Part shown: one piece after another, positions 14,183 to 43,900 of the stretch
Position numbering within the stretch: position 1 is the first letter of the stretch
How the letters are laid out: the number at the start of each line of letters is the position of its first letter
From: Gammaproteobacteria bacterium
Lineage (GTDB): Bacteria > Pseudomonadota > Gammaproteobacteria > Steroidobacterales > Woeseiaceae
Direction: 5' to 3'
Assembly: GCA_029861535.1 (NCBI GenBank)
Contig: JAOTZC010000003.1
Location: 1 to 64,000, forward strand
Length of the DNA stretch: 64,000 nucleotides
Notes under the pieces: generated by a model
What the model was told of the DNA's origin: nothing
Seen by the model: the letters and a program-made list of their open reading frames with translations, nothing else
The model's database searches: none
Translations under genes and position numbers: made by a program

Positions 14183-14566
14183 ATGCGTCATAGAAAATCC
14201 GGCCGTCGACTGGGCCGCAATAGCTCTCATCGCAAGGCGCTATTTCGCAACATGGCGACGTCAATGCTGAAGCACGAGACGATCCGCACGACTTTGCCAA
14301 AGGCGAAGGAGCTTCGCCGCGTCGTCGAGCCGCTGATTACGCTCGCCAAAGAAGACAGCGTTGCGAACCGCCGTCTCGCATTCGATCGTCTGCGTGACAA
14401 GGAAGTGGTCGGTAAGTTGTTTTCGGAACTTGGTCCGCGTTTTAAGGATCGTCCAGGCGGATATCTTCGCATCTTGAAAACCGGCCCGCGTCCGGGTGAC
14501 GCTGCGCCAATGGCCATCGTCATGCTGACAGAAAAAGCAGCAATAGAAGAACCCGCCGAAACCTAG
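14183..14566 (+). CDS. rplQ: 50S ribosomal protein L17
   Basis: L17 closes the alpha operon. The 127-aa protein starts [24 protein letters not shown] and contains the conserved [21 protein letters not shown] and [31 protein letters not shown] strong terminator follows 24 nt after the stop. Confidence 0.97.
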
Positions 14567-14590
14567 TAGCGCTACAAATCAAGGAAACGA

Positions 14591-14617
14591 AAAGCCGGGT
14601 AGATACCCGGCTTTTTT
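14591..14617 (+). terminator. Rho-independent terminator of the ribosomal supercluster
   Basis: AAAGCCGGGT and ACCCGGCTTT form a 10-bp stem with a 4-nt loop, running into a T-tract (TTTTTT). It is the expected end of the tuf/S10-spc-alpha transcript after rplQ. The A-rich 5' flank could also let it work on the opposite strand, for the RND operon. Confidence 0.9.
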
Positions 14618-14636
14618 ATCTCCGACATTCTCAATA

Positions 14637-14718
14637 GGCCGAAGATGACGTACTTCTCATCCTCATGGCTCGCTGGCGCTGCGCTTTACTTCGGATGAAA
14701 AGCACGCCGTCTTCGGCC
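14637..14718. repeat. Long imperfect palindrome with conserved core, copy A
   Basis: The left arm starts GGCCGAAGATGACGTACTTC and pairs with the right arm ending ACGCCGTCTTCGGCC; 22 of 26 positions are complementary and the others are mostly G-T type. The inner 52 nt (14653-14704) are about 88% identical, after one gap, to the reverse complement of the element at 40928-41011, including TCATGGCTC, TGCGCTTTACTT and GATGAAAAGCA. A stem pair next to the loop is C-G here and G-C in the other copy. It sits between the rplQ terminator and the convergent RND gene. It is probably a non-autonomous REP/MITE-type repeat. Confidence 0.75.
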
Positions 14719-14775
14719 TTTCCCAGAGTCACGAACGCGCGGGCGCAACGCATTACCGCTGATGAAAAGCACGCC
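14719..14775. repeat. Degenerate second copy of the palindromic element
   Basis: GATGAAAAGCACGCC recurs exactly at 14761-14775 (first at 14694-14708). The 35 nt before it, TCACGAACGC... to ATTACCGCT, align with the loop and right arm of copy A at about two-thirds identity. The left arm is not recognisable, so this looks like a decayed partial tandem copy. Confidence 0.5.
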
Positions 14776-14795
14776 ATGCCCAGCCTGAATGGCCG

Positions 14796-40028: not shown

Positions 40029-40916
40029 ATGCGTCAGCGGCAATGTGCATTCCTTACGATGCAAAATCCTGGTGACTTCGTTACCGATTACGACTTGAGT
40101 ATTGCGCCGATGGCTGAACTCGGCTGGCGGGTCGTGCTCGTCAACTGGCGCGATCGGTCAATTGCCTGGGAGGATTTTGACGCGGTCTACATCTGTACGC
40201 CTTGGGACTACCTGGAAGATCCTGCGTTGTTTCTTGATGTCCTCGACACTATCGACAAATCGACTGCGGTGCTGGTCAATGATCTTGCGTTGGTTCACTG
40301 GACACTCGAAAAGACCTACTTGAAGGACCTCGAGGAACGCGGCGCCGACGTCGTACCAAGCACCTGGTATCCAGAATTCGATGCAGAAAATGCCGACGTG
40401 TTTTTTTCAGAGCACAATACTGACAAGCTTGTTCTCAAACCTTTGATCGGTGCAAACGCCGTGGACACCTTCGTACTGACGAAACCGATCGGCGATACAC
40501 TTTGCCGCGAGCTCACGGAGACATTTCGCGATCGACCGTTTTTCGTGCAGCCATTTATCGCCAACATACAATCTGAAGGCGAGTTTTCGCTGTTCTTTCT
40601 GGGTGACGCCTACAGCCACGCGATTCTGAAAACACCGAAAGCGGGTGACTTCCGTGTACAGGAAGAACATGGCGCTGAAATCAAGGCCATTACTCCGCCG
40701 GACAGACTGATTGATATCGCAACTCGCACAATGGGCTTGGTAAAGCCGGAGCCGGTCTACGCGCGCATTGATTTTGTACGCGACGACGATGACCGCTACC
40801 TGCTGATGGAACTGGAATTGATCGAACCGTCCCTATATCTACGAACAGACTCTGGGGCGGCAATGCGCTTCGCGGCGGCATTCGACGCTCACGTTCGAAA
40901 TCGATCGCAAGACTAA
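40029..40916 (+). CDS. ATP-grasp superfamily enzyme
   Basis: ATP-grasp enzymes join a carboxylate to an amine or thiol through an acylphosphate. The 295-aa protein has VLKPLIGANAVDTF (ATP-binding lysine region), FFVQPFIANIQSEGEFSLFFLG and YLLMELELIEPSLYL, where the acidic residues would bind magnesium. The opening FLTMQNPGDFVTDYDLSIAPMAELGWRVVLVNWRD and CTPWDYLEDP recall the subgroup of small stand-alone members. The product is unknown. A palindromic repeat follows the stop. Confidence 0.8.
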   Translation: MRQRQCAFLTMQNPGDFVTDYDLSIAPMAELGWRVVLVNWRDRSIAWEDFDAVYICTPWDYLEDPALFLDVLDTIDKSTAVLVNDLALVHWTLEKTYLKDLEERGADVVPSTWYPEFDAENADVFFSEHNTDKLVLKPLIGANAVDTFVLTKPIGDTLCRELTETFRDRPFFVQPFIANIQSEGEFSLFFLGDAYSHAILKTPKAGDFRVQEEHGAEIKAITPPDRLIDIATRTMGLVKPEPVYARIDFVRDDDDRYLLMELELIEPSLYLRTDSGAAMRFAAAFDAHVRNRSQD

Positions 40917-40927
40917 TGTCGAATCGA

Positions 40928-41011
40928 GGGTTGGGGGGACAATGCTTTTCATCGGAAGTAAAGCGCAACGCAGTGAGCCATGACGATGAGAAGCGTTGTC
41001 CCCCCAGCCCC
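40928..41011. repeat. Long imperfect palindrome with conserved core, copy B
   Basis: GGTTGGGGGGACAATGCTTT (from 40929) pairs with the far arm AAGCGTTGTCCCCCCAGCCC. The reverse complement shares its inner 51 nt with copy A at 14653-14704, with one gap. The outer arms are unrelated in sequence to those of copy A but also pair with each other. It lies between the convergent ATP-grasp and uvrA genes, where it could act as a bidirectional transcription barrier. The GGGGACA end recalls the REP-like repeat at 996-1058. Confidence 0.8.
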
Positions 41012-41023
41012 ATGTCACCCACG

Positions 41024-43900
<2,877 letters not shown>

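Follow-up and report, generated by a model that had tools for sequence, protein, structure and literature searches.

Two hairpins in one Woeseiaceae genome have a common core and unlike stems, which raises the question of what reads, keeps or spreads such a structure. The window, that is, the whole stretch of 64,000 nucleotides analysed here, contains a palindrome at 14636-14719 and another at 40928-41010, where a first-pass annotation made from the letters alone had placed them. As that annotation had claimed, the two copies share a core (TCATGGCTC...TGCGCTTTACTTC and GATGAAAAGC), the pair that closes the loop is C-G in the first copy and G-C in the second, the outer arms are unlike between the copies yet paired inside each of them, and both copies lie between convergent genes (rplQ and an AcrB-type RND transporter gene; an ATP-grasp-like gene and uvrA). 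The features are as follows.

14636-14719: copy 1, whole palindrome; 27-nt arms, 85% complementary, 30 nt between the arms
14636..14662, + strand (pattern strand; best-folding strand -): copy 1, 5' arm of the 27-bp stem
14663..14692, + strand: copy 1, conserved core with 2-bp mini-hairpin; 30 nt, TCATGGCTC-GCTGGCGC-TGCGCTTTACTTC
14693..14719, + strand: copy 1, 3' arm
14738..14786, + strand: decayed half-copy of copy 1 (3' half of the core and 3' arm)
14183..14566, + strand: rplQ (ribosomal protein L17), convergent neighbour of copy 1; Pfam PF01196
14796..17918, - strand: AcrB-type RND transporter gene, convergent neighbour of copy 1; Pfam PF00873
40928-41010, pattern strand -: copy 2, whole palindrome
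40984..41010, - strand (pattern strand; best-folding strand +): copy 2, 5' arm
40955..40983, - strand: copy 2, conserved core; 29 nt, TCATGGCTC-ACTGCGT-TGCGCTTTACTTC, A-T replacing G-C in the mini-hairpin
40928..40954, - strand: copy 2, 3' arm
40029..40916, + strand: ATP-grasp-like gene, convergent neighbour of copy 2; weak Pfam PF02955 match
41024..43900, - strand: uvrA, convergent neighbour of copy 2; Pfam PF17755/PF17760

Both copies have a folding energy far below that of shuffled sequences (z -5 to -8.7 as RNA, -3.4 to -6.6 as DNA). Copy 2 is closely flanked, with the stop of the ATP-grasp-like gene at 11 nt and that of uvrA at 13 nt. The half-copy at 14738-14786 lies 67 bp downstream of copy 1 and has 76% identity to 14671-14719; it has no partner arm, and its unpaired arm is decayed. 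A separate canonical intrinsic terminator follows rplQ just ahead of copy 1 (14590-14620, terminator 14590-14615), with a 12-bp stem, a 2-nt loop and a T-run.

Size, spread and anatomy of the family

The core is not limited to the two places in the window, which was one of the doubts that the first-pass annotation had raised about its own reading. This genome (G000, a 2.57-Mb draft, 76% complete) contains the exact core, TCATGGCTC-N-TGCGCTTTACTTC, at 49 places, compared with 0 for a reversed-pattern control, which excludes a chance origin. A covariance model (R1), built from 44 of the 49 exact-core copies, brings the total to about 59 copies, six of which are about 131 nt long with an enlarged tip. 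Copies are carried by 54 of 73 Woeseiaceae congeners, at 0-57 per genome, and the copy number is 0 in near-complete congeners. MAGs labelled Coxiellaceae, Deltaproteobacteria or Myxococcota contain exact cores too; some of the Coxiellaceae and 'Deltaproteobacteria', and some other MAGs, have tens of copies. Only 3 of 369 genomes in a class-wide sample score for the family. A phage origin was rejected, as 2.9 million viral contigs contain 0 exact cores. A known RNA family was likewise rejected, since nothing in the window matches Rfam 15 above gathering score and copy 2 meets only sub-threshold miRNA hairpin models (E<=5). Literature searches by the core letters returned nothing relevant, and text searches gave REP papers as the only close relatives; the hairpins are found neither in Rfam 15 nor in the literature searched and form a previously undescribed family.

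Across the 49 exact-core copies, complementarity drops sharply to background beyond 27 bp, and on either side of the core the sequence information vanishes at a distance of 26-27 nt, so that the unit can be defined as an arm of 26-27 nt, a core of 29-30 nt and a second arm of 26-27 nt, about 83 nt in all. On the folding strand the core reads 5'-GAAGTAAAGCGCA, a 2-bp mini-hairpin and GAGCCATGA-3', and is near-invariant, a constancy for which the exact-core searches select. The covariance-model search added few copies with core mismatches, 56 of 59 having none at the scored positions, where the scoring pattern itself still fixes part of the core. The pairs of the mini-hairpin also vary on both sides (G-C, A-T), and other lineages have a longer mini-hairpin (GGATC-GAA-GATCC, GCCC-TTC-GGGC) between unchanged flanking TCATGGCTC and TGCGCTTTACTTC. 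The core could be read as a small ORF (ATG GCT CGC TGC GCT GCG CTT TAC TTC), but inserts of 8, 11 and 14 nt do not preserve its frame, and this reading was rejected. Guide-like stems with targets elsewhere were also rejected, since 40 arms searched in their own genome matched only their own loci, plus one local half-copy.

The six long variants of this genome (C22:139388, C37:6503, C27:17172, C57:97109, C60:30090 and C37:24763; L198, L199, L200, L201, L202 and L028) have a second conserved internal loop (GTATTCAAC ... GCTATCGGACC), which encloses about 30 variable nt at the tip. At L066 2285-2340 (C70:17318) a palindrome, GGGGACATTCTACATTTAGTGTACTAATACATTAAATGTAGAATGTCCCC, takes the place of one arm of a copy; it may represent a further repeat family.

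Covariation and the folding strand

Covariation was assessed in 44 ungapped copies from this genome, with shuffled and slid pairings as controls. Paired cells amount to 88.2%, compared with 59.6% for shuffled and 34-50% for slid pairings, and double-sided changes to 359 cells, compared with 98 shuffled and 64-77 slid; such changes are present at all 29 pairs. The 44 copies exceed all shuffled and all slid controls, which answers the other doubt of the first-pass annotation, that there might be no excess covariation, and together with the 49 cores and the congeners gives strong support to its proposal of a palindromic family in which the core is conserved and the outer arms covary. The stems are not random, being copy-by-copy departures from a weak consensus, and the median arm identity within the genome is 0.45. 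As the loop is near-constant and the stem differs yet remains paired, anything that uses the hairpins must recognise loop and shape and not the sequence of the stem.

The mismatches left in the stems are polarised. With conserved mismatch positions left out, the counts of A×C versus G.T on the pattern strand are 66/29 in this genome, 163/42 in the others and 129/11 in Coxiellaceae plus P_S1_bin.12. On the reverse complement of the strand on which the core was first read, the A×C mismatches become G.U pairs, and the conserved CT/TC mismatch pair of a 'CTCCC' subtype becomes tandem G.A; only this strand converts the mismatches to G.U and G.A. It is also the better folder in 45 of 49 copies of this genome, 102 of 107 of the others and 42 of 42 from Coxiellaceae plus P_S1_bin.12. 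In the Coxiellaceae the wobble positions are conserved, even swapping C×A for A×C. Between pairs of ortholog sites with similar arms, single changes via wobble number 40 on the folding strand and 3 on the other, beside 68 clean double changes.

These patterns favour one single strand as the form whose fold is under selection, and argue against mere homogenisation of a palindrome. Covariation with G.U intermediates on one strand is the pattern demanded of a structured RNA, and a single DNA strand would give the same signature. Of the two explanations offered by the first-pass annotation, selection on structure is thus supported and can be assigned to one strand by mismatch polarity, folding and wobble intermediates.

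Placement, gain and loss at gene ends

With genes taken as longest-ORF calls, for which small errors are expected, 26 of 43 placed copies in 768 kb of G027 lie between convergent genes, compared with 124 of 661 gene pairs (OR 6.6, p 8e-9), and 14 of 23 in this genome, compared with 35 of 214 (OR 8.0, p 9.5e-6). The median distance from a copy to the stop codon on the nearer side is 6-17 nt. In tandem contexts the orientation relative to the genes is free in G027 (8 vs 7) and 6 vs 2 in this genome; orientation has no link with GC skew, and no lagging-strand bias of the copies was seen, at low power. The polarity therefore tracks the core and neither genes nor replication, a pattern more in keeping with an autonomous element than with a segment of host mRNA. 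Close pairs are always inverted and in one order (7/7 in this genome, about 20 more elsewhere), often with one 'CATCG' and one 'CTCCC' member.

The flanks contain no conserved promoter signal. The termini of the hairpins are not conserved and no direct repeat at the boundaries stands clearly above shuffles, on which grounds a DDE-type MITE was rejected. A T-run (T4 within 15 nt) is found in 0 of 49 copies of this genome on the pattern strand and 1 of 49 on the reverse complement, and in 0 of 34 Coxiellaceae copies on both strands. An intrinsic terminator was rejected for this reason; copy 1 even stands behind rplQ's own terminator.

Several loci contain further structures. Related-type partner hairpins, with cores such as GGAATGGCTCGCTTCGCTGCGCTTTAGTTCC and inverted to the main type, are found at L094, L122, L148, L149, L151, L152 and L161. 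In G013 (L148 3700-4100, L151 4670-4970) a hairpin pair is enclosed by an apparent small element that has inverted ends of its own (CACGGCCGTCTAGC...), and a pair of near-identical left halves is found at different sites. In L148 and L166 (G013, G094), the intergenic spaces occupied by the hairpins also contain GTAGGAGCGG...CCGCGAC palindromes, which we take to resemble Pseudomonas-type REPs.

Comparison of congeners shows that copies come and go. The copy 2 site is empty in about a dozen of them, where the same two genes have abutting stops, and orthologous sites are either empty or occupied by hairpins with unrelated stems. Ortholog-site pairs between genomes are in the same orientation in 61 cases and opposite in 50 (33 vs 18 for single copies); their arm identity of 0.40 is that of unrelated copies, and their cores are 97% identical. 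As arm identity at shared Woeseiaceae sites is not above background overall (p ~0.1), most of these sites seem to have been occupied independently. Vertical descent is plain for a few pairs, such as L113/L404 with arms at 95% and flanks at 77%. At one site shared by G094 and G064, with flanks 90% identical, both hairpins of a pair are present and their cores align, and the stems and spacer are unalignable; this could mean selection to keep hairpins there. Coxiellaceae genomes have the same arms and core at different flanks, and their orthologous copies show compensatory changes. Near-identical recent copies are rare in Woeseiaceae, which, like the low arm identity within this genome, is odd for an active copying element. 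At L062 8970-9205 (C65:30970-31206) there is an inverted half-copy (C65:30977) with its full neighbour's exact arm and a long-type core, a possible step in pair formation.

Candidate explanations and known systems

It seems to us an even chance, judging from the sequences, that the family is a REP-like mobile or mobilisable hairpin which would be recognised in trans by its single-stranded core and stem geometry and would fall outside the described REP families. A trans-acting enzyme would recognise the single-stranded core and a stem of set length and shape while the folding strand is single, as ssDNA or an RNA intermediate, and would move or copy the element, so that only hairpin-forming lineages would spread. 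The stems would drift via G.U intermediates with the core remaining fixed, and insertions would survive where they are least harmful, between convergent stop codons, those elsewhere being purged. We favour this reading because the polarity tracks the core, the boundaries are sharp, copies are gained and lost, and the family is patchily distributed. For it are the copy numbers in this genome and its congeners and the occurrence in distant phyla set beside 3 of 369 across the class; the empty copy 2 sites and the Coxiellaceae arms and core at different flanks; and the covariation, strand polarity, sharp ends free of flank signal and one-order inverted pairs. Against it, Y1_Tnp is neither linked nor correlated, there is no target duplication, near-identical recent copies are rare in Woeseiaceae, and the G094/G064 site may reflect selection that keeps hairpins in place.

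The principal rival, to which we give a clearly smaller chance, is that the hairpins are cis-acting RNA elements of 3' ends, selected site by site, which would serve as a bidirectional roadblock, a processing site or an mRNA stabiliser between convergent genes; a host protein would bind the loop, and the stem would only have to pair. The short distances to stop codons and the convergent enrichment in both genomes agree with this, as do the folding strand's tolerance of G.U, the compensatory changes in orthologous Coxiellaceae copies, the G094/G064 site that keeps both hairpins though their stems differ, and the few Woeseiaceae copies (L113/L404) with arms better conserved than flanks. However, the free orientation in tandem contexts (8 vs 7) means that the folding strand and the mRNA strand often do not coincide, T-runs (0-1 of 49) and a conserved flank promoter are lacking, some congeners have no element at the same gene pair, and near-complete congeners have none at all.

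Less probable still is that stems are made or homogenised by copying: snap-back or template-switch synthesis, during insertion or replication, would render one flank an inverted copy of the other, and the element would need to bring only its loop. In one form of this reading each insertion would acquire a fresh stem, the target flank being copied into an inverted repeat by snap-back synthesis from the hairpin; if true, this would be a mode of transposition whose terminal hairpin is supplied by the target instead of the element. Arm copying had been the second explanation of the first-pass annotation. In G100 there are 15 copies with a nearly constant core and unrelated, mostly perfect arms of 23-34 bp, some of which extend into the final codons of tgt- and queC-like genes; for the queC arm, a comparison of native and copied sequence found that the C-termini of relatives differ after CESC. 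Two local half-copies that keep a neighbour's arm (C65:30977 and 14738-14786 in the window) are also suggestive, as are the G094/G064 stems, fully replaced at 90% flank identity between cores that align. The copying of arms gives no reason to favour A×C over G.T on one strand and leaves unexplained the conserved wobble positions of Coxiellaceae, where C×A is swapped for A×C; moreover, Coxiellaceae arms travel with the element and the arms of this genome share a weak consensus.

The linked Y1 transposase that the first-pass annotation had suggested was not found: no copy lies within ~1.5 kb of 30 Y1 loci or of 4 further ones, and the presence of Y1_Tnp does not correlate with copy number. Y1 is undetected in the copy-rich G025, G035, G072, G075, G001, G097, G098 and G102, an absence that is soft because these draft genomes are incomplete.

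Among known systems, the attC sites of integrons also act as a folded single strand read largely by structure, with variable stems and conserved unpaired bases; they have conserved R and L boxes at their outer ends and stand in arrays of cassettes in direct orientation. The hairpins share with them the structure-read fold, the variable stem sequence and the conserved unpaired bases, and differ in having neither cassette arrays nor R/L boxes, with no information at or beyond the outer ends, and in being inverted. Rickettsia palindromic elements (RPE) are units inside ORFs that share a consensus (PMC3733652). They too are dispersed palindromes reaching into coding sequence, whereas the hairpins lie between stop codons and differ in stem sequence. 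Annotation also calls for caution, as in these MAGs hairpins of this kind overlap both small ORFs and the ends of genes.

The closest comparison is with REPs and their BIME and REPIN arrangements. REPs have a GTAG or CGTC tetranucleotide foot, a stem of 5-13 bp and a short loop (PMC3733652); they are many dispersed small palindromes, occur as inverted pairs of two unlike members, lie within ~20 bp of 3' ends and often between convergent genes, and include stem variants with compensating changes and G-T pairs as well as CGTC families without a known transposase (PMC3733652; PMC3116915). The hairpins resemble them as dispersed small palindromes with compensating stem changes, forming inverted dimers at 3' ends between convergent ORFs. 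They differ in that the 29-nt loop is conserved and not the stem, whose 26-27 bp are nearly unconstrained, that no tetranucleotide foot is seen, the flanks of 49 copies having information of about 0 farther than 26-27 nt from the core, and that no Y1 gene flanked by the repeats, as for REPIN and RAYT, was found in these mostly draft genomes. An ordinary REP/REPIN family mobilised by a RAYT (Y1) transposase is therefore very improbable and was rejected, despite the palindrome's small size, inverted pairs and gene-end sites and a patchy genus-wide distribution that would suit it (PMC3733652), since Y1 is neither linked nor correlated with the copies. In A. variabilis GTAG-15 and H. neapolitanus CGTC-1, REP dimers lie inside long palindromes with one consensus per genome (PMC3733652); a longer palindrome encloses a repeat core there as here, and the outer palindrome here differs copy by copy. 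Hundreds of paralogous hairpins with a frozen loop, a near-free paired stem and strand-specific wobble provide an unusually clean natural experiment and imply a system of recognition by the loop and by the geometry of the stem. Identifying the enzyme, or showing that stems are copied from targets, would bear on how REP-like repeats spread without RAYT.
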